This document shows, piece after piece, positions 22,430-37,485 of a DNA stretch of 64,000 bases (position 1 is its first letter; every line of letters starts with the position of its first letter). This stretch comes from Hydrogenobacter sp. T-8. Its GTDB lineage: Bacteria > Aquificota > Aquificia > Aquificales > Aquificaceae. Location: the NCBI RefSeq assembly GCF_011006175.1, contig NZ_CP048795.1, forward strand, positions 992,001-1,056,000, given 5' to 3'. The translations under genes were made by a program, and so were the position numbers. The notes under the pieces are model-generated. The model saw only the letters and a list, made by a program, of their open reading frames with translations, had not been told where the DNA came from and searched no databases.

Positions 22430-22494
22430 GTTAACCTCCTGACAGGTTTTATTATAGAGCAATCCGCCTTTTCTAAGTGCTAATATTATTTCCT

Positions 22495-23358
22495 ATGAGG
22501 CTCACAGACTTTCTTAAGGAAAGGAACATATCCGTGGGTGACAACTTTCGCCTTCTACTGGATACCCTAAAGCTTAGCGGGGAAGAATACATAAGGGCAA
22601 AGGAGCAGGAGATTGGGGAGCCCGCCAAGATGTCCAAGTCAAAGGGCAATACCGTTGACCCAGAGGAAGCCATAAGGAAATACGGAGCGGACACGGTAAG
22701 GCTCTACATACTCTTTGCCGGACCTGTGGAAAAGGACTTTGAGTGGACGGAAGAAGGTGTGCAGGGAGCCTACAGGTTTCTCAGAAGGCTATGGAGCCTT
22801 TTCCATCAGCATTTGGAAAGCCTAAGGTTGGTAAAGTATAGCGGAGAGGACTTTACATCCCTTGCGGGAAAACAAAAGGAGATAAGACACAAAACCCATC
22901 AAACCCTCAAAAAATACCTCTCCAGCATGGAAGACCTCTCTTTTAACACAGCAATAGCCAGCATAATGGAGCTTCTGAATGCCCTTCAGGACTTCCAGCC
23001 ATCCCAAGAAGTGGACTACAAGGTGCTAAGGGAATCTCTTGAAACCCTTCTCTTCATGCTCTATCCCATAACTCCTCACATATGCGAAGAGCTTTGGCAC
23101 AAACTGGGACATGAGAGGCTTATGGTCTTCTATCCCTTCCCAGAACCCGATGAGAAAGCCCTTGCCCTTGAGGAGGTAGAAATCCCAGTGCAGGTGAACG
23201 GAAAACTCAGGACCCTCTTAAGGGTTCCGGTGGATGCGGAAGAGGAGCTTGTGAAGGAAATGGCTCTCAAAGACCCAAAGGTGAGCCAATGGCTGGATGG
23301 CAAGCAGGTAAAAAAGGTTATATACATAAGGAACAAACTCCTCAATCTGGTGGTGTAG
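22495..23358 (+). CDS. leuS: Leucyl-tRNA synthetase, beta (C-terminal) subunit
   Basis: 287 residues. Contains only the C-terminal catalytic motif KMSKSKGN (K45-S49), the region KYGADTVRLYILF, and the anticodon-binding helices. The HIGH motif, editing domain and first half of the Rossmann fold are missing. This is the Aquifex-type split LeuRS in which alpha and beta are separate genes; alpha must be elsewhere. The start DFLKERNISVGDNFRLLLDTLKL segment is like that of the A. aeolicus beta chain in order and length. TATTAT lies five bases before ATG. Confidence 0.92.
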   Translation: MRLTDFLKERNISVGDNFRLLLDTLKLSGEEYIRAKEQEIGEPAKMSKSKGNTVDPEEAIRKYGADTVRLYILFAGPVEKDFEWTEEGVQGAYRFLRRLWSLFHQHLESLRLVKYSGEDFTSLAGKQKEIRHKTHQTLKKYLSSMEDLSFNTAIASIMELLNALQDFQPSQEVDYKVLRESLETLLFMLYPITPHICEELWHKLGHERLMVFYPFPEPDEKALALEEVEIPVQVNGKLRTLLRVPVDAEEELVKEMALKDPKVSQWLDGKQVKKVIYIRNKLLNLVV

Positions 23359-23575: not shown

Positions 23576-23596
23576 TTTTTATCATACAAATTCCCC

Positions 23597-23624
23597 TTGA
23601 CAGCCTTTAAGCTCATGCTAATTT
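23597..23624 (+). promoter_or_regulatory. Promoter of the oxidoreductase operon
   Basis: TTGACA at 23597-23602, a 16-base spacer and TAATTT at 23619-23624 preceded by TGC, an extended -10. The predicted start is about 25 bases before the AGGAGG site and ATG 23656. Confidence 0.5.
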
Positions 23625-23655
23625 TTTGATAACCCATTCATAAGGAGGTTAAGGC

Positions 23656-24369
23656 ATGCCGATGGAAGTTTTGCCAGGACCCGCTGGTTATATACCAACC
23701 CCAGCAGCCTTTGAAGGTGTTGAACTTCCTCCACCAGGAAAAGCATTGCTTTATGGGAAGATAGTGGACGAAGAGACCGCAATGAGAGAGGCTGCAAAAG
23801 CCATGCTTACCAGAAGAAACCCTACCATATTCCCAGGACCGCTGGTTCTTTGGGGATGGAACGCAGGAGCAATGGAAAAGGCAAAGGCTGTTCTTGAACT
23901 TGCCATGGAAATACCCAATTGTAGGATAATACCCATGCCCGACTACAGGCCCAAGTATCCCAAAATAGACCCAGAAGCAGAGATAAATCCAAACCACCCC
24001 AACCTAACCATACTTCACAATAAGATAGAAGCCTGTATCTTTGTAGGTGTGCATTGCCACTATGCGAACCTATCTCTTAGAATGATAAGGGCTGGAACCA
24101 ACTGCTTTACTATAGCCCTTTGTGCAGAAATGGGCCACGAGGATGCTATGGTCTCCCTAAGAGACCAGCATGCGGAAGAAATAAGACGTTTCAAGGATGT
24201 GCTTGTTCAGGTAAGAGAAGAGCTTGGTATAAAGTGGGAGCCAAAACTTCCACCAGAGAACCCATCCCTTCCAAAAGAAGAGTATCAGACCCTTTCTGTT
24301 TTGGACTATGGAGAGTATTCTTATCTTTTAATCCCCAGAAGGGGAGAACACGTGACCGAAAGCGAATAA
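23656..24369 (+). CDS. 2-Oxoacid:ferredoxin oxidoreductase, accessory subunit
   Basis: 237 residues, first gene of the oxidoreductase operon. It starts VLPGPAGYIPTPAAFEG and contains GPLVLWGWNAGAMEKAK and ACIFVGVHCHYANLSL. It has no iron-sulfur motif. Aquificales homologues have been loosely named carbon monoxide dehydrogenase beta subunit family, and a five-subunit enzyme of this sort is known from Hydrogenobacter thermophilus. The order here (this gene, alpha, beta, gamma, small ferredoxin) resembles forDABGE (2-oxoglutarate synthase) more than porEDABG, but the substrate cannot be read from sequence. AGGAGG precedes ATG. Confidence 0.75.
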   Translation: MPMEVLPGPAGYIPTPAAFEGVELPPPGKALLYGKIVDEETAMREAAKAMLTRRNPTIFPGPLVLWGWNAGAMEKAKAVLELAMEIPNCRIIPMPDYRPKYPKIDPEAEINPNHPNLTILHNKIEACIFVGVHCHYANLSLRMIRAGTNCFTIALCAEMGHEDAMVSLRDQHAEEIRRFKDVLVQVREELGIKWEPKLPPENPSLPKEEYQTLSVLDYGEYSYLLIPRRGEHVTESE

Positions 24370-24385
24370 AAACGGAGGTAGTGTC

Positions 24386-25555
24386 ATGCCAGAGCAAAGA
24401 GTTGTAGATGCGGATTACCTTCTTTTAGAGGCACCGAGGGAGAGAAAGTTTATCACCGGTGCCCAAGCTATGGCGGAGGCTGTCAAGCGTGCCAACGTGG
24501 ACATAGCAATAGCATACCCTATAACACCCCAATCTGAGGTTATGCACCTTGTGGGTGACCTATGGGCTCAGGGCTATCTCAAGGACTACTACAGGGCGGA
24601 AGAGGAATACGGTGCTATGTCCGCTATAGCTGGAGCGGTCAGAGGTGGTGCAAGAGCTTTTTCCGCTACTTCTGGACCAGGTCTCCTTAGGGGTTTGGAA
24701 GCCATAGCCTCTTGGCCAGGGCATAGAATACCTGCGGTTCTTGGGGTTCTCACAAGGGTTGTGAACGCACCCCTTTCCATACAGCCTGACAATGTGGAGA
24801 TAGCTTACCTGCTTCACTCTGGAGTGGTGGTATTGCATGCAGAAAACCAGCAAGATGTTTTTGACTTTACGCTTGCCAGCTTTGTTATATCTGAGAAGGT
24901 GGACGTTTATATACCCATAGCGGTTTGCACCGAGGGCTTTTTTGTAACACACGCCAAGGGCTATGTCCACATGACTCCAGAAGACATGAAACTGCCACCA
25001 AGAGACCCCTACAAAGCACCCGTGCCACCCACAGACTGCGAAATACCCCCTGCAAGGATACAGAGGGATGCACCAGTTCAAAAATCTAACTTTATGAGCT
25101 ACCTTATACACGCGGTATGGCAACAAGAAGTTTGGGCTTCTAACATAAGGGCAATGAAATACATCTACAAATACCTTGGTGGTCCTATAGAAGTGGTAAA
25201 CCCAGACGCAGAAGTCTTTATAGTTGCCTCTGGATGTGCCGCAGCACAGGGAAGAGAGGCGGTGCGTTACGCCCAGCTTGAGGGTCTAAATGTAGGGCTT
25301 GTAAAGGTCAAGTCCATAAGACCCTTCCCAGAAAAGGAGATAAGACAAGTTCTTTCAAAGGCTAAGGCGGTTATAGTGCCTGAGCACAACATAGTGGGAT
25401 GGCTTGCAAAAGAGGTAAAGGCGGTCATACCTAACAACGACATAGTTATAGGCGGTCCAAGAGTCTACGGCGGTATGACGCTACCGGTAGAGCTTATCAT
25501 GGAAAAGGTATACGATGCCTTTGGCATAAAGAAAGCAAAGAAAGTTGTTGTATAA
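24386..25555 (+). CDS. 2-Oxoacid:ferredoxin oxidoreductase subunit alpha
   Basis: 389 residues. The PFOR domain I motif AYPITPQSEVMH, the glutamate-rich region EEEYGAMSAI and SGPGLLRGLEA are present, and domain II begins near VFIVASGCAAAQGREAV. Together with beta it forms the thiamine diphosphate site where CO2 is added reductively to acetyl-CoA or succinyl-CoA, using reduced ferredoxin, in the reductive TCA cycle. It follows the accessory subunit after 16 bases. Confidence 0.92.
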   Translation: MPEQRVVDADYLLLEAPRERKFITGAQAMAEAVKRANVDIAIAYPITPQSEVMHLVGDLWAQGYLKDYYRAEEEYGAMSAIAGAVRGGARAFSATSGPGLLRGLEAIASWPGHRIPAVLGVLTRVVNAPLSIQPDNVEIAYLLHSGVVVLHAENQQDVFDFTLASFVISEKVDVYIPIAVCTEGFFVTHAKGYVHMTPEDMKLPPRDPYKAPVPPTDCEIPPARIQRDAPVQKSNFMSYLIHAVWQQEVWASNIRAMKYIYKYLGGPIEVVNPDAEVFIVASGCAAAQGREAVRYAQLEGLNVGLVKVKSIRPFPEKEIRQVLSKAKAVIVPEHNIVGWLAKEVKAVIPNNDIVIGGPRVYGGMTLPVELIMEKVYDAFGIKKAKKVVV

Positions 25556-25577
25556 AAAAACTTAAGGAGGTATAGAT

Positions 25578-26444
25578 ATGGGTTTGGAATACGTCAGAAT
25601 ATCACCAGGCTTTGAAAAATATATGCCCAAGGACTATGTAGACCTGGTCCAATATGGGCAGTTTGGTAGAGAGGTAGATGTGCAACAGCTTGGACAGTTC
25701 AAGGAGCTTGTGGAAGAGCACCCCATGTGTGCAGGATGCTTTATGGCATATTTCATAAGGATATTCTACGCAGCTCTTCCAAAGCCAGAAGACACCATTG
25801 TTATAGGCACCGCAGGTTGTGCAAGACTTGCCCTCTCTCAAGCAGCCGTTCCCTTCATATACGGAAACTATGGAGACACTAACGCAGTTGCTTCCGGTCT
25901 AAAGAGAGCTCTCAGCATAAGGTTTCCCGATAAGGTAAAGGATGTGGTGGTTATAGCAGGAGATGGTGGTCTTATAGACATAGGCTTTGGAATGACCATG
26001 CACTCTTGGTTCAGAAGAGAGAAGTTCACCACCATCATGGTGGACAATGAAGTTTATGGAAACACTGGTGGTCAAGAGAGTGGTATGTCTCCAAAGGGTG
26101 TTCAACTAAAGATGGCTCCCAAGGGCAAGCAGTTTGACAAAATAAACGCGGTGGAGCTTGCAAAGACCGCAGGCTGTGTATACGTAGCAAAGCTGGCACC
26201 CACCAATCCCAAGAGAATAGCAAAAACCGTCCGCAGGGCAATACTTGCCGCAAGGCACTTTGGACCCACCTTTATACATGCCTACACCTCTTGTAACATA
26301 GAATACTCCATACCCACAGAAAAGGTTCTCGAGGATGCCAGAAAGAGAGAAAAGCAAGACTTTGGTTTCTATGAGTGGATGACCGATGAGGTAAAGGAAT
26401 TCTTTGAAGAGATAGAAAGGAAGCCAGAGGAGGTAAAGGCATGA
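25578..26444 (+). CDS. 2-Oxoacid:ferredoxin oxidoreductase subunit beta
   Basis: 288 residues. Thiamine diphosphate/Mg site: GDGGLIDIGFGM followed by DNEVYGNTGGQESG. MCAGCFM near residue 50 and C-terminal SCN supply cluster-ligand cysteines. Catalytic partner of alpha in the cytoplasmic complex. AAGGAGG lies upstream of ATG 25578, and the stop overlaps the gamma start by ATGA. Confidence 0.94.
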   Translation: MGLEYVRISPGFEKYMPKDYVDLVQYGQFGREVDVQQLGQFKELVEEHPMCAGCFMAYFIRIFYAALPKPEDTIVIGTAGCARLALSQAAVPFIYGNYGDTNAVASGLKRALSIRFPDKVKDVVVIAGDGGLIDIGFGMTMHSWFRREKFTTIMVDNEVYGNTGGQESGMSPKGVQLKMAPKGKQFDKINAVELAKTAGCVYVAKLAPTNPKRIAKTVRRAILAARHFGPTFIHAYTSCNIEYSIPTEKVLEDARKREKQDFGFYEWMTDEVKEFFEEIERKPEEVKA

Positions 26445-27124
26445 AAAGGTATAACATACGCATAGCTGGTGTTGGTGGGCAGGGGGTGGTTACCTCCGCC
26501 CACATCCTTGGTAATGCCATGTCTGCCGCAGGTAAATATGCAACTCTTGTCCCCTTCTTTGGTTCAGAAAAGAGGATGGCACCCGTTGAAGCCTACGTTA
26601 GGGTCTCCGACCAACCCATATACGAAGTGGGTGAGGTGGTATATCCAAACGTGATAATGATTTATCACCCTCAGGTCATAACTCATGGAAAGTCCTACAC
26701 CATGCCCTTCTACTCAGGTCTGAAAGAAAACGGTCTTGTGATAATAAACACGGACGTGGACATAATTCCAGAAGAGGACTGGAATATTCTCAAAGAACTC
26801 AACACAAGGGTCTACATGTTCCCAGCTACAAAGATAGCCCTTGACATTGCTGGAACTGAGCTTGCCACAAACATGGCAATGATAGGTCTTTTCTTTGGTA
26901 TAACCCGTATTGTAGGCTTTGAACACATAGAGCAGGCTGTAAGAGAGAGATTTCTTGGAAATACCTTCGTAGCTTCTGGTGGAACAACAGCCCTTGACAG
27001 TGCTATAGAGAAGAAGTTCAAAAAGAAGATGGAGCTTCTTGAGAAAAATATGCAGGTTATAAGAGAAGCCTTCAAGATAGCGGAGGAAAGGGGCTGGGTG
27101 GAAGAAGAAGCTCTTACGGGTTAA
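26441..27124 (+). CDS. 2-Oxoacid:ferredoxin oxidoreductase subunit gamma
   Basis: 227 residues. AGVGGQGVVTSAHILGNAM is the gamma-domain signature (PF01558), followed by SEKRMAPVEAYVRVSD. This subunit contributes to CoA binding. Overlaps beta by four bases and is followed after 27 bases by the small ferredoxin subunit. Confidence 0.93.
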   Translation: MKRYNIRIAGVGGQGVVTSAHILGNAMSAAGKYATLVPFFGSEKRMAPVEAYVRVSDQPIYEVGEVVYPNVIMIYHPQVITHGKSYTMPFYSGLKENGLVIINTDVDIIPEEDWNILKELNTRVYMFPATKIALDIAGTELATNMAMIGLFFGITRIVGFEHIEQAVRERFLGNTFVASGGTTALDSAIEKKFKKKMELLEKNMQVIREAFKIAEERGWVEEEALTG

Positions 27125-27151
27125 ATTAATCTATAAGGAGGCAAGGCAGGT

Positions 27152-27376
27152 ATGTACTATGTGGCGGATGTAAAGGAAGCGGATTGTGCTAAGTATAACT
27201 GTAAGCAGTGTGTGCTCTTCTGTCCAGAGCCAAACACCCTCATGTATCACGACTCCAAGCATGTGGCGTGGGTAAACTACTCAAGGTGTAAGGGCTGTGC
27301 CATATGTGTTTATGTATGCTCTGACCTTTTAAAGAGAAACTGCATAGAGATGGTAATGGTGACCGCTGGAGATTAA
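27152..27376 (+). CDS. 2-Oxoacid:ferredoxin oxidoreductase small ferredoxin subunit
   Basis: 74 residues. Cysteines fall in two groups, CKQCVLFCPEP and CKGCAICVYVCS, with an extra N-terminal CAKYNC. This supports two [4Fe-4S] clusters passing electrons between external ferredoxin and the thiamine site. It is shorter than the delta subunit of typical four-subunit enzymes. GGAGG precedes ATG. Confidence 0.88.
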   Translation: MYYVADVKEADCAKYNCKQCVLFCPEPNTLMYHDSKHVAWVNYSRCKGCAICVYVCSDLLKRNCIEMVMVTAGD

Positions 27377-27387
27377 GGAGGTAGAGC

Positions 27388-27684
27388 ATGAACTTGGAGG
27401 AAAAGTTTAACTTACTGGCGGAAGAGGTCAAGAAGAGTATGGCTAACCCAGACCTTGATATTGAGTTATGCTTTCCCAACGAGGTGGACCAAGCTTGTGA
27501 AATAAGGAGCTATCCATACCTAAGGGTAAAGTATGTGGTGGAGGGGCACGATGTTTATGAAAAGGAGATAGATATAGAGCCCATGTATTGGGAAAAGGAT
27601 ATAAAAGACCTTGCTGGTCTTGTTACTTTTCAGATACAGCAGTTTATGGAAGAGATAGACTCTGTGGAGTACGGCGGAGAGTGA
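27388..27684 (+). CDS. Unknown 98-residue protein of the oxidoreductase operon
   Basis: Small acidic soluble protein with two cysteines (ELCFPN and DQACEIR). No family recognised. It has a strong AGGAGG site, lies 11 bases after the ferredoxin subunit and is followed at once by the CobW-type GTPase. Position suggests an assembly or stability factor for the enzyme or for the metal supply by the GTPase; this is inference from order only. Confidence 0.65.
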   Translation: MNLEEKFNLLAEEVKKSMANPDLDIELCFPNEVDQACEIRSYPYLRVKYVVEGHDVYEKEIDIEPMYWEKDIKDLAGLVTFQIQQFMEEIDSVEYGGE

Positions 27685-27685
27685 A

Positions 27686-28564
27686 ATGCTTCCTGCCTTC
27701 GTGATAACAGGCTTTCTCGGAGGCGGTAAGACTACCCTGTTGCTCAACTCTGCGAGAGAGCACTTTTCTAACAAAAGGGTAGCGATTATAGTCAACGAGC
27801 TTGGCGAGGTGGGCGTGGACGGCAAGGTTCTCAGAAATGCCTATTCTGAGGTGCTTGAACTTCCGGAAGGATGTATATGCTGTTCCCTGCATGCAGAGTT
27901 TGAAAAAGCAATTGAGGAAATAAGGGTTAAATATGAGCCCGAGGTGCTTCTTGTAGAGACCTCTGGCGGTGCGGTACCTTTCCCTGTGATCCTTAGCCTT
28001 CAGTCGCTTGGCTGTTCTGTGGATGGGGTCCTATGCCTTGTGGACTGTGCCAACTTTGAGAGGTACAAGGAAGACAGCACCGCAAGATATCAGATAGGTG
28101 GATCAAACATAGTGGTTCTAAATAAGACCGATTTGGTAGCAGAGGAAAGGGTTTCTGAAATAGATAGAGAGGTAAGAGAAATCTGGAACCTCTACAGACC
28201 GGTTAACTCCTTCACAGGCGAAGCCTTCTACACCAAGCTCAGGGTCTATAGAACCAGCTACGGTAGGCTTCCAGCAGAGGTCTTCTCTGGCGCCTATACC
28301 ATTCCTGAGCTTAAGAGTATAGCAATAGACCACGCACACACCCACAAGCACAAAGTGGTAAGCCTGCTTGAGCCTTTGGATTATGAAGAGCTTGAGAGAA
28401 GATTGAGAAACCTGCCTGATAATATAATAAGGGCTAAGGGAATAGTGAGGCTCAAACACTATCCCTTTCCTGTTGCCATAAACTACTCCTTTGGATACAT
28501 AGATAACCCTGTAGAGGTCAGCGGCTACGACGGACCCTCCTTCCTTGTCTTAATAGGAAACTGA
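27686..28564 (+). CDS. CobW/COG0523-type metal-chaperone GTPase
   Basis: 292 residues. P-loop GFLGGGKTT (residues 9-17), GCICC (C63-x-C65-C66, the metal-binding CxCC motif) and LNKTDLV for guanine recognition. A histidine-rich DHAHTHKHK stretch near residue 215 could bind zinc, cobalt or nickel. COG0523 proteins insert metals into client enzymes. Here it is flanked by the oxidoreductase and the bicarbonate transporter, so a carbonic-anhydrase-like or transporter client is possible but unproven. It starts one base after the previous stop. Confidence 0.88.
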   Translation: MLPAFVITGFLGGGKTTLLLNSAREHFSNKRVAIIVNELGEVGVDGKVLRNAYSEVLELPEGCICCSLHAEFEKAIEEIRVKYEPEVLLVETSGGAVPFPVILSLQSLGCSVDGVLCLVDCANFERYKEDSTARYQIGGSNIVVLNKTDLVAEERVSEIDREVREIWNLYRPVNSFTGEAFYTKLRVYRTSYGRLPAEVFSGAYTIPELKSIAIDHAHTHKHKVVSLLEPLDYEELERRLRNLPDNIIRAKGIVRLKHYPFPVAINYSFGYIDNPVEVSGYDGPSFLVLIGN

Positions 28565-28580
28565 CCTTCGGAGGTATCTT

Positions 28581-29552
28581 ATGGGTCTTGAACTGCTTTT
28601 GCAGAACATACTCAATCCACCTGTGCTAATGTTTTTTCTTGGGCTTGGTGCGGTGCTTCTAAGGACAGAGCTTGAGGTGCCACAGCCTCTTCCGAAGCTC
28701 TTTTCCCTATATCTTCTTATAGCTATAGGTCTTCATGGTGGCTATGAGCTTTCAAAGAGTGGTATAACCCTTGATGTGCTTAAAGTCTTACTCCTTGCTA
28801 TGTTCATGGCGGTTGCTGTGCCCATTTATGCCTTTTTTATACTTAGGCTCAAGCTGGATGTCTACAATGCGGTCGCCATAGCTGCTACTTACGGCTCCAT
28901 AAGTGCGGTGACCTTCATAACTGCAGGCTCTTTTCTAAACAGCCTTGGGGAGAGCTATGGTGGCTATATGGTAGCTGCTATGACCCTTATGGAGTCTCCG
29001 GCTATAGTTATAGGGCTTGTGCTACTGATGCTCTTTGCCAAAAGAAACAACAACTCTGCGGTAAACTGGGGTGAAGTGCTTAGAGAGGCTTTTCTAAACC
29101 CTTCCGTTTATATCCTCATGGGAACGCTCCTAATAGGTTTTCTGACAGGGGAAAAGGGTTGGAAAGCCATGGACCCGCTTTTTGGTGTGCTCTTTAAAGG
29201 TATGCTTGCCTTTTTCCTGCTTGATATGGGTATAGTGGCTGGTCGTAGAATAGGGGATATAAAAAAGGTTGGCTTGTTTCTTATAGCCTTTGGGGTTTTT
29301 CTACCCGTGTTTAACGCCTTGGTGGGTATATTCTTAGCAAAAAGCTTTGGCTTTGTTAAGGGAGATGCCTTTATGTTTTCTATACTATGTGCCAGTGCTT
29401 CTTATATCGCAGTTCCTGCAGCTATGAGGCTCTCCGTGCCCGAGGCAAACCCAAGCCTTTACGTGACCATGTCCCTTGCCATTACCTTTCCCTTCAATAT
29501 AGCGGTAGGCATACCGTTATACTACTTTCTAATAAACCACCTATGGGGGTGA
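28581..29552 (+). CDS. sbtA: SbtA-type sodium-dependent bicarbonate transporter
   Basis: 323 residues, about ten membrane spans in two inverted halves. ILNPPVLMFFLGLGAVL at the start, SLYLLIAIGLHGGYEL and TLMESPAIVIGL match SbtA (DUF897) of cyanobacteria and other autotrophs. It imports HCO3- with Na+. In this operon it would feed inorganic carbon to the carboxylating oxidoreductase. The next gene is the PII-like SbtB, as in known SbtAB pairs. Confidence 0.9.
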   Translation: MGLELLLQNILNPPVLMFFLGLGAVLLRTELEVPQPLPKLFSLYLLIAIGLHGGYELSKSGITLDVLKVLLLAMFMAVAVPIYAFFILRLKLDVYNAVAIAATYGSISAVTFITAGSFLNSLGESYGGYMVAAMTLMESPAIVIGLVLLMLFAKRNNNSAVNWGEVLREAFLNPSVYILMGTLLIGFLTGEKGWKAMDPLFGVLFKGMLAFFLLDMGIVAGRRIGDIKKVGLFLIAFGVFLPVFNALVGIFLAKSFGFVKGDAFMFSILCASASYIAVPAAMRLSVPEANPSLYVTMSLAITFPFNIAVGIPLYYFLINHLWG

Positions 29553-29556
29553 GAGC

Positions 29557-29850
29557 ATGAAACCTATGAAAAAGGTGGAAGTGGTCATTGACAGCATATA
29601 CCTGAGCAGGGTGTTGGAAGTGTTAGAAAAAACTGGAGTCTCTGGCTACACGGTCATAAGGGATGCCCTTGGAAAGGGGGAAAGGGGTATTATGGCGGGT
29701 GATGAGCTAACGGATGTATTTAAAAATAGCTATGTGTTTACCGTGTGCTCAGAAGAAATAGCTCAGAAAATAGCTGAAAGCCTTAGACCACTTCTTAAAA
29801 AGGTGGGCGGGGTATGCCTCATATCAGACGTGCTATGGCTCACACACTGA
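29557..29850 (+). CDS. sbtB: SbtB-type PII-like regulator
   Basis: 97 residues. VVIDSIYLSRVLEVLEK, GVSGYTVIRDALGKGERG and YVFTVCSEEIA match the PII-like SbtB group. SbtB trimers bind cAMP/AMP-type nucleotides and gate SbtA. The C-terminal CGPEGC-like redox loop of some cyanobacterial SbtB is absent. It starts four bases after sbtA. ATG 29566 is a second possible start. Confidence 0.88.
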   Translation: MKPMKKVEVVIDSIYLSRVLEVLEKTGVSGYTVIRDALGKGERGIMAGDELTDVFKNSYVFTVCSEEIAQKIAESLRPLLKKVGGVCLISDVLWLTH

Positions 29851-29863
29851 TATAAGGAAAACT

Positions 29864-29916
29864 TATAATCTTTATCATAATTACTAATGGCACAGGTCAG
29901 ATACAGAACTTATAAT
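29864..29916 (+). promoter_or_regulatory. Promoter region of the sulfur-oxidation locus
   Basis: Two TATAAT boxes (29864-29869 and 29911-29916) lie in the 98-base gap before tusA. The second is the better placed; its -35 (TGGCAC at 29888-29893, 17-base spacing) is weak, as expected for an activated promoter. The leader would end in AGGAGG before ATG 29949. Confidence 0.4.
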
Positions 29917-29948
29917 ATGAGGATAATCTTACACAGGAGGTGTTTGAG

Positions 29949-30185
29949 ATGGCAACTATAACACCAGACAAGACCCTTGATGCTTCTGGGCTTAACTGTC
30001 CTCTTCCTGTTCTTAAAACAAAGAAGGCTATTGAGGAGCTTCAATCTGGGCAGATTCTTGAGGTAATAACCACAGACCCCGGTGCAAAGGCGGACATACC
30101 AGCCTTTTGCAACAGGACAGGGCATCAGCTCCTTGAAACGGTAGAAGAGGGAGGAAAGATAATCTTCTACCTCAAGAAGAAATAA
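29949..30185 (+). CDS. tusA: TusA-type sulfur carrier
   Basis: 78 residues. ASGLNCPLPVLKTKKAIE carries the sulfane-accepting cysteine C17 in the CPxP motif, and DPGAKADIPAFC follows the usual pattern. TusA brings persulfide sulfur to the sHdr pathway in sulfur oxidisers. Start ATG 29949 was chosen with AGGAGG upstream. First gene of the sHdr locus. Confidence 0.92.
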   Translation: MATITPDKTLDASGLNCPLPVLKTKKAIEELQSGQILEVITTDPGAKADIPAFCNRTGHQLLETVEEGGKIIFYLKKK

Positions 30186-30197
30186 GGAGGGATAAAA

Positions 30198-30731
30198 ATG
30201 GCTACAGAAAGGCTTGCTATAATAGCCACAAAGGGTACGCTTGATATGGCGTACCCGCCTTTAATATTAGCCTCAACCGCCGCATCTCTTGGTATAGAAA
30301 CTGCCATCTTCTTTACCTTTTACGGGCTTAATATTATCCATAAAAAGAAAATGCACGAGTTAAAAATAGCCCCCATAGGAAACCCTGCCATGCCCATGGC
30401 TTTCCCTCCCTCCATGCAGAACCCAGTAACAAACGCAATATCTTCCATATTCCCAGGACCTCCACAGATAATGGGTATAATCCCTGGCATGACAGACCTT
30501 ATGAGTTTTATGATGAAAAAGACCATAAAGGAGCATGGAGTGGCGGACATACCTGAGCTTATAGAAGCGTGTAAAGAGGCAGAGGTGAAGCTCATACCAT
30601 GCCAGATGACCATGGAACTCTTTGGCTACAAATACGAAGACCTCATAGATGGTCTTGAACCTCCAGCCGGCGCTGCCACCTTTATGAATTATGTGCTTGA
30701 AGCGGACAAGCCTATGATAATCTTCGTCTAA
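30198..30731 (+). CDS. dsrE: DsrE3-type sulfurtransferase
   Basis: 177 residues. LAIIATKGTLDMAYPPLILA at the start and the active-site cysteine C135 in LIPCQMTMELFG match DsrE3 proteins that act with TusA in sHdr gene clusters. The middle segment is unusually rich in proline and methionine (APIGNPAMPMAFPPSM). Starts 12 bases after tusA with GGAGGG. Confidence 0.87.
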   Translation: MATERLAIIATKGTLDMAYPPLILASTAASLGIETAIFFTFYGLNIIHKKKMHELKIAPIGNPAMPMAFPPSMQNPVTNAISSIFPGPPQIMGIIPGMTDLMSFMMKKTIKEHGVADIPELIEACKEAEVKLIPCQMTMELFGYKYEDLIDGLEPPAGAATFMNYVLEADKPMIIFV

Positions 30732-30742
30732 GGAGGATAGAT

Positions 30743-31159
30743 ATGGCATACGAGAAGGTGCTTTTCTACATTCTAACAGTGCCCTTCTTTGAAAGGGCGG
30801 AGCCGACAACTGGCGAGCTAATTAACCCACAGGCTGGTGCTCCTTTCTTCCTCGCTACCGCAGCCACCACCATGGATTACGAGGTGGAAATGGTTATAAC
30901 TTCAGAGGCAGGCTTTCTACTTATGAGAGACAACGCCAAAAAGGTAAAAGTCAGACCGGGAGTGGAGCAGACCATATACGACTTTATAAAGATGGCAAAG
31001 GATGCGGGTGTGAAGATATACCTCTGTGTGCCTTCTCTTGACCTAACAGAGATATACAAAAAGGAAGATGTGAACCCTGAGCTCTGCGACGGCATAATAG
31101 GTGGTGCTGCCTTCCTTGACAAACTTATGAGTGGCGAGTATGCGGTTCTTACCCTTTAA
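30743..31159 (+). CDS. DsrE-family protein, second copy
   Basis: 138 residues. The same fold as the previous gene, with C95 in KIYLCVPSLDL at the position of the sulfur-carrying cysteine. It lacks the methionine/proline insert. Together with TusA and DsrE3 it probably forms a sulfur relay. It is followed by a 134-base gap, so it ends the first part of the locus. Confidence 0.8.
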   Translation: MAYEKVLFYILTVPFFERAEPTTGELINPQAGAPFFLATAATTMDYEVEMVITSEAGFLLMRDNAKKVKVRPGVEQTIYDFIKMAKDAGVKIYLCVPSLDLTEIYKKEDVNPELCDGIIGGAAFLDKLMSGEYAVLTL

Positions 31160-31250
31160 GGCTTTTTCCACCTCCCCCTTTTTTGAGTATGCACTCATAA
31201 GTTTATCCTTATATATACATAAGCAAAATTTAATTGACTTTTATCATTTG

Positions 31251-31256
31251 TATAAT
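31251..31256 (+). promoter_or_regulatory. Possible -10 box before hdrC1
   Basis: TATAAT at 31251-31256 in the AT-rich 134-base gap, 38 bases before the ATG and its AAGGAGG site. TTGACT at 31234-31239 is only 11 bases upstream, too near for a normal -35. An internal promoter separating the carrier genes from the Hdr genes is likely. Nothing else is seen in this gap except a short CTTAT/ATAAG stem. Confidence 0.4.
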
Positions 31257-31293
31257 ACCTTTATAGAAAGTAGAAACCCTAAGGAGGTTTACC

Positions 31294-32022
31294 ATGGATG
31301 GACATATTTATGGATATAACCTCCCCATATCGGAGAAAACCAAGGCAGTGCCTTGGGAGGAAAAGGTTCGTATAGTGGAGGAGGTAAAGTCAGACTTTCG
31401 TTTTAAGGAATACATCTTTGGCTGTCTTAACTGCGGTGTTTGCACCGCATCCTGCCCTTCCAATAGGTTTTTTGACTACTCTCCAAGGGAGATAGTTCAA
31501 AGGTTCTTGGAAGAGGACGTGGAAGTGCTATATGACATGATGCATGAATACATATGGGCATGCTCTCAGTGCTTTACCTGTTGGATAAGATGTCCCTTTG
31601 TGAATAACCCCGGTGGTCTTGTTGCTATAATGAGAGAGGTGGCGGTGCGTAATGCCTTTGAAGCCACAAAGGACCTTCTAAAACCCTACGGAAGGGTTCT
31701 TCTCAAGGTTATGACCACAGGAAACCAGCTCTCTGCGGACATGCTTCAGCCAGACTTCTTCCCAGACTGGGGTCCCAAGATGGCGGACAATATGGAAAAC
31801 CTGAGGGCAAAGAGGCTTGCCATACCCTTTGACGTGGGCAAGTCTGTCAAGACCGCATGGGAAGTGTCTTTGGAGACCGCAATAGAGATGTATACCATAT
31901 GGAGAGAGACAGGCATCTTTGAGATGCTTGAAAAGCTTGACCCAAACCTCTACAACGTCATCATGGACATAGTAGAGGAAAACGAAGAGAGGTATGCGGA
32001 GCTTTATGAAGAGGAAGAGTAA
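31294..32022 (+). CDS. hdrC1: sHdr subunit C1
   Basis: 242 residues. Two [4Fe-4S] motifs are clear: CLNCGVCTASCP near residue 40 and CSQCFTCWIRCP near 90. This is the HdrC electron-transfer subunit of the sulfur-oxidising heterodisulfide reductase-like complex, extended at the C-terminus compared with methanogen HdrC. The order C1-B1-A-Hyp-C2-B2 is the diagnostic sHdr order. Confidence 0.92.
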   Translation: MDGHIYGYNLPISEKTKAVPWEEKVRIVEEVKSDFRFKEYIFGCLNCGVCTASCPSNRFFDYSPREIVQRFLEEDVEVLYDMMHEYIWACSQCFTCWIRCPFVNNPGGLVAIMREVAVRNAFEATKDLLKPYGRVLLKVMTTGNQLSADMLQPDFFPDWGPKMADNMENLRAKRLAIPFDVGKSVKTAWEVSLETAIEMYTIWRETGIFEMLEKLDPNLYNVIMDIVEENEERYAELYEEEE

Positions 32023-32069
32023 GCTAACAAGAGGGGTTGATGCCCCGAAAAAACTAAGGAGGTGTAATC

Positions 32070-33422
32070 ATGGCAAAACATGGCTTTGGACATAACAGCC
32101 CCGGAGGCCTTCTGAGATATCCAGAACAGCCCCCCTTCCCCCTCAAAGAATACAGCGCCCACTACGACCACATCTTTGAGATGATGGAAGAGCTCGAAGC
32201 CAAGGGCGAAATTCTCATACACAGGATTACGGAGGAGCACCAGCCCGTAGAGGTCTTTACAAGGACCGGAAGGATAAAGCTCATACCCACCAACAAGCTC
32301 TGGCATCACAAGTCCTGTGGTCAGTGTGGAAACATCCCCGGATATCCTGCCTCTGTCTTCTGGTTTATGAACAAGTTTGGCCTTGACTACCTTAACGAGC
32401 CTCACCAAACCTCCTGCACCGCATGGAACTATCACGGCTCTGGCACATCCAACCCAGTAGCTTTGGCAGCGGTCTGGCTCAGAAACATGCACCAAGCATG
32501 GAAGACTGGATACTATCCTCTCATCCACTGCGGAACATCCTTTGGCTCTTACAAGGAGACAAGGGAACAGCTCATCATGAACAAGGAGTTAAGGGATGCG
32601 GTAAAGCCTATACTCAAAAAGCTCGGAAGGCTCACAGAGGATGGAAGGATAGTTATACCCCAAGAAGTGGTCCACTACTCCGAGTGGGTCCACGCTATGA
32701 GATACAGGATAAAGGAGCTATACGAAAAGGAAGGCAAGGCTAAGGGCATAGATGTTTCCAATGTGAGGGTTGCCATACACAACGCCTGCCACACCTACAA
32801 GATGATAGCGGATGACTATCCCTATGACCCAGAGGTCTACAACGGTCAAAGACCTGCTGCTTCTACAGCAGTGGTAAAGGCTCTTGGTGCACAGGTGGTG
32901 GACTACTCCACTTGGTATGACTGCTGTGGCTTTGGCTTCAGGCACATACTTACCGAAAGGGAGTTCACAAGGTCTTTTGCCATACAGAGAAAGCTCAAAG
33001 TTATCGCAGAAGAGATAAAGGCGGATCTCATAGTAACTCACGACACAGGCTGCACCACCACCTTTGAGAAGAACCAGTGGATAGGAAAAGCTCACGGTAT
33101 GTATCACCCTGTAGCGGTTATGTCTGACGTTATGTTTGCAGCTCTTGCTTGCGGTGCTCATCCCTTTAAGGTGGTCCAGCTCTACTGGAACTGCTCCAAC
33201 TACGAGCCTCTCCTTGAGAAGATGGGTATAACCAACTGGAGAGAGCTAAGGAAAGAATGGGAAGACACCGTTAAATACATAGCAGACCTTGAAAAGGCTG
33301 GCAAGTACGATGAGCTCATGGAGTTCTTCAAGGAATACGACCTGTATGAGCCCTACAGCAGAACTTCCACGGGTAAACCAAAGGCTTCCGCAACCGCAAA
33401 CATGCCCCTGTTTAAGTCATAA
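32070..33422 (+). CDS. hdrB1: sHdr subunit B1
   Basis: 450 residues, longer than methanogen HdrB (about 300). The C-terminal half has the CCG-type cluster motif (ACHTYKM, then YDCCGFGFRH, then HDTGCTTTFE). The N-terminal half has a diverged set (CGQCGN, TSCTAW, IHCGTSFG) in which the paired CCG is lost. Such non-cubane clusters reduce or form disulfides in HdrB. Good AAGGAGG site. Confidence 0.9.
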   Translation: MAKHGFGHNSPGGLLRYPEQPPFPLKEYSAHYDHIFEMMEELEAKGEILIHRITEEHQPVEVFTRTGRIKLIPTNKLWHHKSCGQCGNIPGYPASVFWFMNKFGLDYLNEPHQTSCTAWNYHGSGTSNPVALAAVWLRNMHQAWKTGYYPLIHCGTSFGSYKETREQLIMNKELRDAVKPILKKLGRLTEDGRIVIPQEVVHYSEWVHAMRYRIKELYEKEGKAKGIDVSNVRVAIHNACHTYKMIADDYPYDPEVYNGQRPAASTAVVKALGAQVVDYSTWYDCCGFGFRHILTEREFTRSFAIQRKLKVIAEEIKADLIVTHDTGCTTTFEKNQWIGKAHGMYHPVAVMSDVMFAALACGAHPFKVVQLYWNCSNYEPLLEKMGITNWRELRKEWEDTVKYIADLEKAGKYDELMEFFKEYDLYEPYSRTSTGKPKASATANMPLFKS

Positions 33423-33431
33423 GCTTTTTCT

Positions 33432-33446
33432 GGGGGCTCTGCCCCC
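33432..33446 (+). other. GC-rich hairpin between hdrB1 and hdrA
   Basis: GGGGGC-TCT-GCCCCC, a perfect six-base-pair stem in the 50-base gap, followed by TTAAG rather than a T run. It may stabilise mRNA ends or change the ratio of HdrB1 to HdrA; no terminator tail is present. Confidence 0.5.
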
Positions 33447-33472
33447 TTAAGAACAATTAAAGGAGGTTTAGC

Positions 33473-34531
33473 ATGGCTAAGAGCGTATTGGTGATCGGTG
33501 GTGGTCCCGCAGGACTTGCGGCAGCAAGAACCTTGGGAAGGCTCGGAGTTTCCACCATCCTTGTGGAGAAGGACAGTCAGCTGGGTGGGAACCCCATCAA
33601 GAACCATTATCACACACTAATTCCCAGAAAACTAAAACCCTCCCAGGTGATAGGTCCTTACATAAAGGATGTGGAGCAAAATCCCAATATTAAGGTGCTT
33701 CTTAACACGGAGATATCCGCCTGTGAAGGAGAGCCTGGAGAGTATAGGGTAACCCTCTCAAACGGTGAAAAATATGAAGTTGGTGCCATCGTGGTTGCCA
33801 CAGGGTTTGAACACTTTGACCCAAGGAGGAAGGGAGAACTTGGTTACGGGCTTTATCCCGATGTTATCACAAACCTTGAGCTGGAAAGGATGTTCTCTCA
33901 GGAAGGTAAGCTCTACAGACCCTCTAACGGACAGCTTCCCAAGAGGGTTGCCTTTGTCTTCTGTGTGGGCTCAAGGGACAGACAGCTTGGTGTGACAAAC
34001 GTGCACTGCTGTAGATATGGCTGTGCCCTCTCTGGTCTGCAGGGTATGGAGATAAGAGAACACTACCCCGATGTGGATGTTTTCTGCTACTACATGGATG
34101 TGAGGACCTACGGCACTTGGGAATATCCCTTCTACTGGGCTCCTCAGGAGCAGTACGGTGTAAGGTATGTAAGGGGTAGGATTGCGGAGATTACATACAG
34201 CCCTGCAGACGGCAGGCTTAGAGTAAAGCACGAGGATACCATCGTACAAAGACCTGCAGAGGTGCCTATGGACCTTGTGGTGCTTGTGCTTGGAATGGAG
34301 CCATCCCCCGGAACCAAGAAGGTTGCCAAGATACTTGGTCTTGCTCAAGACCCCGACAGCCAGTTCCTTGTTCCCTCTGAAGAGTCTGGCTCTAACATCA
34401 TATCCAATAAGCCGGGAATATTCATAGCGGGTGCCTGTAAGGGTCCAATAGACATAGAGTCCTCCTTCTCGGAAGGTGAGGCTGCTGCTGCTGAAGCTGC
34501 AGCCTTCCTTGGTGCAAAGGTGACAGTATGA
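33473..34531 (+). CDS. hdrA: sHdr subunit A (FAD protein)
   Basis: 352 residues. FAD-binding GGGPAGLAAARTLGRLG at the start, VATGFEHFDP, then FCVGSRD and CCRYGC cysteines that bind a [4Fe-4S] cluster. It is the short sHdrA form without the C-terminal ferredoxin domain of methanogen HdrA. As core of the complex it bears the FAD. It overlaps the next gene by ATGA. Confidence 0.92.
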   Translation: MAKSVLVIGGGPAGLAAARTLGRLGVSTILVEKDSQLGGNPIKNHYHTLIPRKLKPSQVIGPYIKDVEQNPNIKVLLNTEISACEGEPGEYRVTLSNGEKYEVGAIVVATGFEHFDPRRKGELGYGLYPDVITNLELERMFSQEGKLYRPSNGQLPKRVAFVFCVGSRDRQLGVTNVHCCRYGCALSGLQGMEIREHYPDVDVFCYYMDVRTYGTWEYPFYWAPQEQYGVRYVRGRIAEITYSPADGRLRVKHEDTIVQRPAEVPMDLVVLVLGMEPSPGTKKVAKILGLAQDPDSQFLVPSEESGSNIISNKPGIFIAGACKGPIDIESSFSEGEAAAAEAAAFLGAKVTV

Positions 34532-35262
34532 AAAAGCCTGTAGTTCTTGACGACTTTTTGGTTAGGGACTATCTGATAAAGATACTTGGAGAAGGCGAGG
34601 AGTTTGTCCAGGAGTTTTACAAGGACCTCCTCGCCAAGTCCCTCCTTTTCCAGCAGGCTTTTTCCAAAGAAAGGCTACCCTCTCTGACAGAGGAAGACCT
34701 TGACCTTGTGCTTGAAAAGATATTCCCTGCAAGAAGAAGAAGACAGAAAATAATCCAAGAAACAGGCGTTAACAAGCTCAAAAGAGCCATAAGCGACCTT
34801 CTCTATGGCAAAGCTCAGACTTGGGAAGAGAGGGTAGAAAAGTTTGTAAGAGAGATAAGGGGTGTGGACAGGAAGTTTGCAAGGGATATAGCCAGCGAGA
34901 TACTCCACTTTACCTTTCCAGAGGAGTATGTGCTTTGGACCAGTTGGATATGGGACCCAGAGAGCGAAAGTGGTGCAGTGGTTTTTCTAAAGGAAGAGCC
35001 ACCAAAGAGGAGCATGTATGGAGAGACTTACGAAGAGTTTGAGCTCATATACAAACAAATTCAGGAAAAGCTCCTTGACTTTGGTATAAAGGTGAAGGGG
35101 TATCTCTTTGTGGATATATTCCTCGCTATGATATACGCCACCTATGTGGACTATATGACCCTGTCCACCATGCATAGTGCCAAGGGCTTCTTCCCTCCTG
35201 CAGGAGTTATGGCAAGGAGGCTCCTTGGCGTTATAAGAAAGGAAGACCTTTTGGAGGTATAA
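34528..35262 (+). CDS. sHdr-locus conserved hypothetical protein
   Basis: 244 residues between hdrA and hdrC2, the place where a conserved hypothetical gene occurs in sHdr clusters. No cysteine cluster or membrane span is visible. It has a charged helical N-half (EEDLDLVLEKIFPARRRR) and the region FPEEYVLWTSWIWDPESESGA in the middle, given by its W-T-S-W core. Translational coupling to hdrA by ATGA and only two bases to hdrC2 indicate that it is made in equal amounts with the complex. Its function is unknown; assembly factor or subunit are both possible. Confidence 0.8.
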   Translation: MKKPVVLDDFLVRDYLIKILGEGEEFVQEFYKDLLAKSLLFQQAFSKERLPSLTEEDLDLVLEKIFPARRRRQKIIQETGVNKLKRAISDLLYGKAQTWEERVEKFVREIRGVDRKFARDIASEILHFTFPEEYVLWTSWIWDPESESGAVVFLKEEPPKRSMYGETYEEFELIYKQIQEKLLDFGIKVKGYLFVDIFLAMIYATYVDYMTLSTMHSAKGFFPPAGVMARRLLGVIRKEDLLEV

Positions 35263-35264
35263 CC

Positions 35265-36023
35265 ATGGCGATACATGAGCGTAGCCTTGTAGAACCAGAG
35301 AGAATTTTAAGGAAGGAAAGGCTTGTTATTGACGGTGTTGACGTCTCTGGAGACTGGAACCTTATAATCCTTCCAAGGGTTATAAACGACTACGACCTTG
35401 ACTTTGCCAAGGAGATTATAAACTCTCCAGATGGCAAGACCATAAACCAGTGCTATCAGTGCTCTTACTGCACTGCATCCTGCCCTGTGCATAACTATTG
35501 GGATGAAAGATATAACCCCAGGCACTTTATATACTTGGCAAGGCTGGGTATGATAGACGAGCTTCAAAAGCGTGCGGATGTGATGTGGAGGTGCGTTTCC
35601 TGCCACAAATGCACCCACAGATGTCCAAAGGGCGTGCTTGTGGAAGAGGTACTAAAAGCCATACTTAGAACTATGGCAAAGAAGGGACTTATAGAGGAGT
35701 ATCCTTCCAAGAAGTTTGATAAGTTCTTTACAGAGTCTGTGCTTGAATACGGAAGAATAGAGGATGGAGAGCTTCTCTTTGGGTGGATAGAAAAGCAAGG
35801 ATACAAGGTCTTCAAAGACCCCATACTCAAAAAGCCCATACCTTTCCTTGGTGAAACACCTGAGTGGTTAAAAGAGCTAACTGTAAAACCTATAAAGTCT
35901 ATGAACATAGGCTTTCTGGTGCTCAATGCCAAACATATGCTCTTCCATCCAAGAACAAAGAACTGGAGCAGGTTCAAGCAAGTGCTACGCAAGGTTATGC
36001 AGGAAGAAGGTGCATTACATTAA
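35265..36023 (+). CDS. hdrC2: sHdr subunit C2
   Basis: 252 residues with two [4Fe-4S] motifs, CYQCSYCTASCP near residue 63 and CVSCHKCTHRCP near 110. Paralogue of HdrC1 in the same operon. It probably links HdrA to HdrB2. The stop is 11 bases before hdrB2. Confidence 0.92.
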   Translation: MAIHERSLVEPERILRKERLVIDGVDVSGDWNLIILPRVINDYDLDFAKEIINSPDGKTINQCYQCSYCTASCPVHNYWDERYNPRHFIYLARLGMIDELQKRADVMWRCVSCHKCTHRCPKGVLVEEVLKAILRTMAKKGLIEEYPSKKFDKFFTESVLEYGRIEDGELLFGWIEKQGYKVFKDPILKKPIPFLGETPEWLKELTVKPIKSMNIGFLVLNAKHMLFHPRTKNWSRFKQVLRKVMQEEGALH

Positions 36024-36034
36024 GGAGGTTTAAC

Positions 36035-36994
36035 ATGGGTGTGATAGGAAAAAGGGTTGCTTATTATCCAGGCTGTTCCCTTGAGGGTGCAGCGAGGGCT
36101 TACGATGTTTCTACAAGAATAGTAGCAAAGGAGCTTGGTCTTGAACTGGACTACCTTGAGGACTACAACTGCTGCGGTGCTATGGAGTCCAAAAATGTCA
36201 CCTTTATGGGCACCATGCTCCTAAATGCCAGAAACATGTCCTTGGCAAGAAAGCAAGGGCACAATGTTATCGTAGCCCCCTGCAACGGATGTTCCTTTTC
36301 CCTGCAAAGGGCGGAATACTTCCTTGAAACAGATAAGGCGGTATATGACAGGGTCAATGCACTTCTTAGAGAAGGCGGTGTAGACCCCCTTGACCAAATA
36401 CCTCAGACCTATCACATATTAGAATGGTTCTATCACGAGGCTGGACCACAGAAGGTAAAGGAAAAGACAAGAAAGCCCCTGAGAGGTCTTAAGGTGGCAA
36501 ACTACTACGGATGCCTATACACAAGACCCCACTTCTACGCAAGAACCTACGCTCACGCAGGTGGTCAGGACGAAGAGGCAAGACCAAGAAAGAGGGAGAC
36601 CGCCGATGACGACGAACATCCATACTATATGAACGCCCTCCTTGAGGCTGCTGGTGCTACGAGCGTGGAGTTTGAACCCATGCATACCCAGTGCTGTGGA
36701 GGTCCTCACTCGCTTTCTGATGAGATGGTCTCTGAAAAGTTCGTAATGATGATACTGCAGACTGCCAAACGCAACGGTGCGGATATAATAGCTACCGAAT
36801 GTCCCCTCTGCCATGCATCTCTTGAAATGTATCGTCACAGGCTTATGATGAAGGGCGTGCCGGATGTGGATGTGCCTGCTGCCTACTTTACACAGCTTCT
36901 TGGGCTCGCCTTTGGCTACAGTGCAAACGATGTAAAGCTCAAGGACAACCTTTCAGACCCCTTGCCAGTGCTAAAAAGATTGGGACTTGCCTAA
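36035..36994 (+). CDS. hdrB2: sHdr subunit B2
   Basis: 319 residues. Two complete CCG motifs: PGCSLEG with YNCCGA and PCNGC in the first half, YGCLYTRP with TQCCGGPH and CPLCH in the second. This implies two non-cubane [4Fe-4S] clusters, unlike HdrB1. Start ATG 36035 was chosen with AAGGAGG upstream; the frame extends back inside hdrC2 but that is not used. A charged insert (residues about 190-200, EEARPRKRETADDDE) lies in the second half. Confidence 0.92.
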   Translation: MGVIGKRVAYYPGCSLEGAARAYDVSTRIVAKELGLELDYLEDYNCCGAMESKNVTFMGTMLLNARNMSLARKQGHNVIVAPCNGCSFSLQRAEYFLETDKAVYDRVNALLREGGVDPLDQIPQTYHILEWFYHEAGPQKVKEKTRKPLRGLKVANYYGCLYTRPHFYARTYAHAGGQDEEARPRKRETADDDEHPYYMNALLEAAGATSVEFEPMHTQCCGGPHSLSDEMVSEKFVMMILQTAKRNGADIIATECPLCHASLEMYRHRLMMKGVPDVDVPAAYFTQLLGLAFGYSANDVKLKDNLSDPLPVLKRLGLA

Positions 36995-37005
36995 GAGGGT
37001 GAAAA

Positions 37006-37485
37006 ATGGGTGTGGTGCAGGAGCTGGAAAGCGGGAACGAGTGGGAATACAACGGATGCGTTGTCCCTCTTGACTTATACTACGAAATAGAAACCCAAAC
37101 ATGGCTCAAGGTGAACGAGGATGGAACGGTCACCATGGGTCTTACCGATGTGGGTCAAGTAAGGGCTGGAAGGCTCCTGCACGCCCGTATCAAAAATGTG
37201 GGCAAAGTGATTCAGAAGGGTAAACCTGTGGCATCTCTTGAGAGTGGAAAGTGGGCAGGACCTATAAACGCCCTTGTGGAGGGCGAGGTGGTGGAAAGGA
37301 ACGAGAAGATCCTTGAACAGCCTGATATAATAAACTATGACCCATACGGTGAGGGATGGATAGTAAAGATGAAGCCAGTGGACTTGCAAAGAGACATAAA
37401 GGACCTCCTCTATGGTAAAGAAGCCATAGAGGAAATGAGAAAATACATTGATGAATGGGATATAATCTGTATGAGGTGCACATGA
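37006..37485 (+). CDS. lbpA: Lipoate-binding protein LbpA, first copy
   Basis: 159 residues, GcvH-like. The lipoyl lysine is K82 in LESGKWAGP. In sHdr organisms such proteins carry lipoate for sulfur oxidation rather than glycine cleavage. The flanking genes support this: hdrB2 is 11 bases upstream and the next gene starts by ATGA overlap. No glycine-cleavage gene is in the window. Confidence 0.9.
   Translation: MGVVQELESGNEWEYNGCVVPLDLYYEIETQTWLKVNEDGTVTMGLTDVGQVRAGRLLHARIKNVGKVIQKGKPVASLESGKWAGPINALVEGEVVERNEKILEQPDIINYDPYGEGWIVKMKPVDLQRDIKDLLYGKEAIEEMRKYIDEWDIICMRCT

Follow-up and report, generated by a model that had tools for sequence, protein, structure and literature searches.

A probable inorganic-carbon pump in an exchangeable slot behind the predicted 2-oxoglutarate:ferredoxin oxidoreductase genes of Hydrogenobacter sp. 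T-8

To our knowledge, almost all that is understood of carbon-concentrating mechanisms concerns RuBisCO. In cyanobacteria the transporter SbtA and the PII-like protein SbtB (Synechocystis slr1512/slr1513; PDB 7CYE, 7CYF) are encoded by adjacent genes of the families PF05982 and PF00543, and the pathway they serve is that of RuBisCO and the carboxysome. Inorganic carbon is likewise accumulated, again with a PII-like gene, by the DabA-DabB complex of Halothiobacillus (DAB/DAC), which is unrelated to SbtA in sequence and, in contrast to this Na+ symporter, depends on vectorial CO2 hydration by a beta-carbonic-anhydrase-like and NuoL-like pair. It was described as a CO2 hydration complex driven by membrane potential, a vectorial carbonic anhydrase with the residues C351, D353, R355, H524 and C539 (PMC13144422). 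Genes for inorganic-carbon transporters or carbonic anhydrases beside those of the reductive tricarboxylic acid (rTCA) cycle were noted in a 2024 minireview with Aquificota among those surveyed (PMC10880623, Fig. 2), and in Aquifex aeolicus the products of aq_1166 (delta), 1167, 1168, 1169 and 1171 (epsilon) were recognised as the 2-oxoglutarate enzyme by in-gel activity and mass spectrometry (PMC10052474). In the present study we analysed a window of 64,000 nucleotides, the whole stretch from position 992001 to 1056000 of the gap-free 1.81 Mb genome of Hydrogenobacter sp. T-8 (Aquificota), in which genes for such an oxidoreductase are followed by sbtA and an sbtB-like gene. From its genomic context, this SbtA very probably acts as a pump for inorganic carbon that serves the rTCA cycle.

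Nine open reading frames (ORFs) on the forward strand, forDABGE-orf98-cobW-sbtA-sbtB, span positions 23656-29850 of the window, with successive gaps of 16, 22, -4, 27, 11, 1, 16 and 4 bases. An earlier account made from the letters of the DNA (the sequence-only reading) had counted seven genes where five oxidoreductase subunits, orf98, CobW, SbtA and a PII-like protein make nine; its upper limit of 27 bases for the gaps is exact. The first five genes encode the delta subunit with a CODH beta/ACS epsilon-like domain (forD, 23656-24369; CO_dh, PF02552, 165 bits; placed as is aq_1166), the alpha subunit (forA, 24386-25555; POR_N/PFOR_II, PF01855/PF17147), the beta subunit with the thiamine pyrophosphate-binding motif GDGGLIDIG (forB, 25578-26444; TPP_enzyme_C, PF02775), the gamma subunit (forG, 26441-27124; POR, PF01558, exceeding the TIGR02175 cut-off) and the epsilon subunit, a ferredoxin with two 4Fe-4S clusters (forE, 27152-27376), which is assigned by position and conservation, its matches to TIGR02179 and Fer4 lying below the cut-off. 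ForA shares 87% identity with its counterpart in genome G001, which we take to be A. aeolicus, 96% with that in G029, presumably Hydrogenobacter thermophilus TK-6, and 51% with the second copy in its own genome, where another oxidoreductase of this kind lies at 899671 in the order E-D-A-B-G. The window enzyme thus resembles those of both species in subunit set, D-A-B-G-E order and ForA identity (87-96%). Because the subunit order and the 87% ForA identity match the cluster characterised in A. aeolicus, it is, judged by its sequence, the five-subunit 2-oxoglutarate:ferredoxin oxidoreductase (OGOR) of Aquificaceae, distinct from pyruvate:ferredoxin oxidoreductase (PFOR); the only orthologue demonstrated to have 2-oxoglutarate-specific activity is that of A. 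aeolicus (PMC10052474).

The product of the transporter gene sbtA (28581-29552, forward strand) matches the family profile PF05982 (Sbt_1) along its entire length (positions 1-307 of 308) with 394 bits against a cut-off of 27. Tree and residues place the protein in a large, non-classical clade far from classical cyanobacterial SbtA; identity to the proven cyanobacterial transporters is 24-27%. The same clade includes, at about 60% identity, second SbtA types of cyanobacteria and, at 51%, an SbtA of oceanic Synechococcus. In the structure of Synechocystis SbtA the HCO3- site was docked, not observed, and mutation of the contacts lowered transport (PMC8352866). Two of these four contacts (Ser114, Tyr140, Ser324, Ser327) are kept in the window protein, as Ser108 and Ser274 in place of Ser114 and Ser324, and so is the Na+ crossover region, whereas Tyr140 and Ser327 are replaced by Met134 and Ala277. 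Alanine at the latter position is common to all sampled members of the clade, including a RuBisCO-linked homologue from Cereibacter.

Four bases behind sbtA follows the gene for its PII-like partner (sbtB-like, 29557-29850, forward strand; P-II, PF00543, 59.7 bits). A sequence search of the PDB returned as its closest relative 5D4N (E 2e-8), which we take to be CPII, the carboxysome-associated PII-like protein of Thiomonas, and next cyanobacterial SbtB (E 5e-6). The GKGxR part is kept, Arg46 is changed to Met, and, in contrast to Synechocystis SbtB, the Cys-rich C-terminal redox loop CGPxGC is absent, the protein ending ...GGVCLISDVLWLTH. This loop is conserved in only some SbtB homologues (PMC8352866). 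The name SbtB given by the sequence-only reading therefore holds for the PII-like family and the adjacency to sbtA, but by its residues the protein is not a canonical SbtB. Its T-loop motif GxGxRGxxxGDELTxVFxNxY...C recurs in PII-like proteins linked to SbtA in several other phyla, in line with a T-loop that would fit this type of SbtA. PII-like proteins linked to Dab genes, by contrast, share the CPII motifs GKGSHGxxEGHLxFNE and HSGVVF, which are missing from the window protein with its own GKGERGxMAGDELTDVFKNSY.

The carbon-pump slot behind OGOR is swappable. We surveyed 136 Aquificota genomes, 58 of which carry an OGOR-linked orf98, the gene of a small protein behind forE, and counted a pump if it lay within 10 kb. 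SbtA was present in 21 of the 136, and near the OGOR-linked orf98 there was SbtA only in 16 genomes, DabA only in 27 and both in one (one DabA being a decayed relic), leaving 14 with neither, in several of which the contig ends beside orf98. Twelve loci of the window genus (g1) and three other genera (g6, g8 and g9) keep the order for-orf98-cobW-sbtA-sbtB. This conservation bears out the earlier view of a multi-subunit 2-oxoacid:ferredoxin oxidoreductase and a transporter as one unit. Six gap-free genomes possess SbtA, and each carries it no more than 10 kb from the OGOR cluster, for which the chance is about 0.012 per genome for one gene; these genomes are related and so do not represent six independent events. 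Since the arrangement is kept in the 12 congeneric loci and three further genera, and SbtA stays by OGOR in six of six gap-free genomes, it is not due to chance.

In genera g3, g4, g8, g10 and g11 the same slot holds DabB-DabA-PII, with a NuoL/Mrp-like DabB of 750-790 amino acids (PF00361, 170 bits), a DabA of about 1000 amino acids (PF10070, 831 bits) with the catalytic CxDxR (CIDVR) and H-15-C residues, and a PII-like protein of 108 amino acids. OGOR is followed by DabBA-PII in the H. thermophilus-like genome and by carB, half of carbamoyl-phosphate synthase, directly after orf98 in the A. aeolicus-like genome G001 (Aquifex genus), as opposed to SbtA-PII in the window. A swap is found even inside genus g8, presumably including Thermocrinis albus, where two genomes (G050, G051) carry SbtA and two (G052, G054) DabBA. 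Another genome, G026, retains directly behind cobW a decayed internal piece of dabA of 86 codons (L227:6085-6342), with no open frame and neither dabB nor a PII gene; its intact sbtAB is found on a different contig and was probably gained horizontally, because this SbtA has as its sister in the tree (100/99) a protein from another family. SbtA and DabA occur together in genome G097, between the OGOR and PFOR operons. In a second family dabB and dabA are separated by an inserted sbtAB (L026, L035; genomes G100, G097), and this cluster continues into the PFOR operon.

Relatives of the window SbtA adjoin carbon enzymes in other lineages as well. Its nearest homologues outside Aquificota come from metagenome-assembled genomes (MAGs) of Sulfurovum (67% identity) and Pyrinomonadaceae (84%), and the two fall inside the Aquificota SbtA clade (100/99). 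In the Sulfurovum MAG sbtA-sbtB follows the gene of an isocitrate dehydrogenase (IDH; PF00180), and the same genome encodes ATP citrate lyase. Of 175 genomes of its family 13 possess SbtA, and in eight of these 13 IDH is directly upstream of sbtA, at one locus per genome (L250, L251, L252, L254, L255, L258, L260 and L263, the last being the same as L061). Six of the eight loci hold a monomeric IDH (PF03971) unrelated to PF00180, and two SbtA clades are involved, the icd-sbtA pairing in these rTCA Campylobacterota being independent of the Aquificota case. A further locus of the family (L253) shows sbtAB followed by purK. In Pyrinomonadaceae carB is directly upstream of an Aquificaceae-like sbtAB (L059:4430-9270, on a contig of 510 kb), probably by horizontal transfer, an error of binning or assembly being also possible; on a Cereibacter plasmid sbtA adjoins a LysR gene and cbbLS. 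The theme common to OGOR, IDH, RuBisCO, CarB, PurK and DAB is inorganic carbon. SbtA copies with an internal stop or frameshifts were seen in a Pseudomonadales MAG (L113:2343-3311) and in a genome of the Sulfurovum family (G227, L264), where the affected gene is a second copy.

Taken as a whole, we consider it probable that the OGOR operon is coupled with a co-transcribed uptake module of SbtA and a PII-like protein that serves the rTCA cycle and whose pump can be exchanged. The operon would join the 2-oxoglutarate synthase step of the cycle to inorganic-carbon uptake: SbtA would import HCO3- together with Na+ and enlarge the cytosolic pool of inorganic carbon, which would feed biotin carboxylases directly and, after dehydration, supply OGOR and its paralogue with CO2. 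The PII-like trimer may use its T-loop to gate SbtA in response to adenylate state or inorganic carbon, in analogy to the SbtA-SbtB complex, and the pump would be a cassette for which relatives use DabB-DabA with a different PII-like protein; a benefit would be expected at low CO2. Both kinds of user are present, since biotin carboxylases (three, away from the operon) and OGOR are encoded, the former as direct users of HCO3-, which would reach OGOR only as CO2. A simple pairing of SbtA with a classical carbonic anhydrase was rejected, as neither a beta-carbonic anhydrase (search of this genome) nor an alpha-carbonic anhydrase (search over the 136 Aquificota genomes) was found in this genome. 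It does encode one gamma-carbonic-anhydrase homologue with the metal-binding histidines present, and dehydration could proceed by this protein and by uncatalysed exchange, which is fast in the heat.

Several points weigh against this explanation. Besides the low identity to proven SbtA and the two replaced contacts, OGOR fixes CO2, not HCO3-, onto succinyl-CoA, so that its link to an HCO3- pump is indirect, and about a quarter of the genomes with an OGOR-linked orf98, the genus Aquifex among them, have no pump within 10 kb. The six proteins with HCO3- uptake in Escherichia coli were all cyanobacterial, and an SbtA-like protein of Labrenzia and, in another system, an SbtA of oceanic Prochlorococcus gave no uptake (PMC4275256), neither of the latter two being placed on our tree. 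By our reading the six transporting proteins are of the classical type, and the searchable literature yielded no demonstration of HCO3- transport by the clade of the window protein. The supply of inorganic carbon to the rTCA cycle nevertheless is the best reading, because DabBA replaces SbtA in the slot and because the icd-sbtA pairing arose independently in Campylobacterota. The sequence-only proposal that SbtA supplies HCO3- to the cycle holds in part: it agrees with the enzyme-transporter unit, the swap and that pairing, and is weakened by the distant clade and the CO2 dependence of OGOR.

The same neighbourhoods would also be seen if the SbtA-like protein moved 2-oxoglutarate or another C4/C5 acid and its PII-like partner sensed 2-oxoglutarate, the metabolite common to OGOR and IDH and thus able to explain the link with both. 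That 2-oxoglutarate is product or substrate of both linked rTCA enzymes, that two classical HCO3- contacts are replaced and that the Labrenzia and Prochlorococcus homologues failed to take up HCO3- speak for it. Yet an unrelated inorganic-carbon pump, DabBA, occupies the same slot, homologues adjoin RuBisCO, carB and purK genes, which share with OGOR and IDH only the theme of CO2/HCO3-, and the PII-like protein is nearer to the CPII/SbtB type than to GlnB/GlnK; we therefore regard transport of an organic acid as unlikely. Only a little less probable is a pump that feeds solely HCO3--dependent enzymes (2-oxoglutarate carboxylase, pyruvate carboxylase, acetyl-CoA carboxylase and those that make carbamoyl phosphate and purines), with a position after OGOR that reflects co-expression with autotrophic growth. 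The three biotin carboxylases, the missing alpha- and beta-carbonic anhydrases and the carB and purK genes adjoining sbtA in other lineages would suit such a restricted role, but the gamma-carbonic-anhydrase-like protein has its metal-binding histidines and CO2 hydration and dehydration are fast at high temperature, so that the two pools probably equilibrate, and IDH, the neighbour in Campylobacterota, also uses CO2. That the genes are neighbours with no functional link, as compact genomes group highly expressed genes, is already disfavoured and very improbable: small genomes do have many tight gene runs, and a co-directional sHdr cluster starts only 98 bases downstream, but SbtA is found at the OGOR cluster in each of the six gap-free genomes that encode it, two unrelated pump types share the slot, and in another phylum sbtA stands beside the gene of a different rTCA enzyme.

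Two further genes lie between the oxidoreductase and the pump. The first, orf98 (27388-27684, forward strand), encodes a small Aquificota-specific protein with the invariant C-terminus EIDSxE[YF]GGE in the alignment, for which neither Pfam nor NCBIfam gave a match; its structural model (pLDDT 80) shows an alpha-beta-beta-beta-alpha fold with no significant match in the PDB (best E 0.037). From its linkage it probably acts as an accessory of OGOR, which is a guess. The family has two or three paralogues per Aquificota genome that all end in a short acidic tail (EYGGE, EYGGG or FEGE), those of Hydrogenobacter sp. T-8 being at 726493-726768 and 1583061-1583318 of the contig. Paralogues adjoin pnp and atpH-ndk, and genome G033 contains a fusion of one paralogue with a dephospho-CoA-kinase-like (CoaE-like) protein (L183:4286-5179), contexts which point to no clear function. 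The second, cobW (27686-28564, forward strand), encodes a GTPase of the COG0523 type (PF02492, 146 bits; PF07683) and putative metal chaperone, with the Walker A motif GFLGGGKTT, the CxCC motif GCICC and a His-rich stretch. That both genes form part of the SbtA module was considered and rejected, for orf98 stands behind forE also with DabBA or no pump at all, and both accompany OGOR even in genomes that lack SbtA. CobW is missing from several Dab-type clusters, and the idea that it loads zinc only into DabA was discarded on account of congeneric CobW-bearing genomes without DabA.

The nine genes likely share one transcript. Upstream of forD, a promoter-like block and leader (23590-23655, forward strand) can be aligned in nine congeneric genomes and reads CCCCTTGACA...TTAAGCTCATGCTAATTTTTTGATAACC. 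The promoter formerly proposed at 23597 finds its TTGACA in this conserved block, but its -10 match is weak and the consensus promoter scan did not list it; the promoter and terminator scan was uninformative here, its output being at shuffle level. Downstream, the intergenic boundary before tusA (29851-29948, forward strand) contains a TATAAT at 29911-29916 that is conserved in an eight-genome alignment and scored 10/12 in the promoter scan. The transcription unit probably ends at sbtB, because this separate conserved block precedes tusA. Behind it are found tusA, two DsrE-like genes and an sHdr-type sulfur-oxidation cluster at 29949-37485. On the other side of the operon, the frame at 22477-23358 encodes the C-terminal half of leucyl-tRNA synthetase as a separate ORF, and a split leucyl-tRNA synthetase is known for Aquifex.

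The central idea of the sequence-only reading, a carbon transporter beside rTCA genes, had in its general form been published in 2024. The main text of that minireview shares the general observation but, as far as that text goes, names no swappable slot, PII-like partners, relic, orf98/CobW or icd-sbtA pairing (PMC10880623). The searchable literature, from which most subscription journals are excluded, yielded no mention of a swappable pump with PII-like partner, of a dabA relic or of an icd-sbtA pairing that recurs. The evidence leaves evenly balanced whether rTCA bacteria of at least two phyla independently built pumps with their own PII-like regulators into CO2-fixing operons, the pump being interchangeable and control of the PII type being kept. 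In this two-phylum reading, for which we see equal reason for belief and doubt, SbtA or DAB would stand behind OGOR in Aquificota and SbtA behind IDH in Campylobacterota. Whether both amount to a carbon-concentrating mechanism free of carboxysomes could, in our judgement, fall either way. If the pumps linked to OGOR do feed the rTCA cycle, adaptation to low CO2 exists also for this ancient, oxygen-sensitive pathway, with the pump drawn from unrelated families. The natural swap within genus g8 enables a direct physiological comparison, and the genomic context argues strongly for what is transported by a large SbtA clade, one that is widespread in cyanobacteria, Bacteroidota and others.

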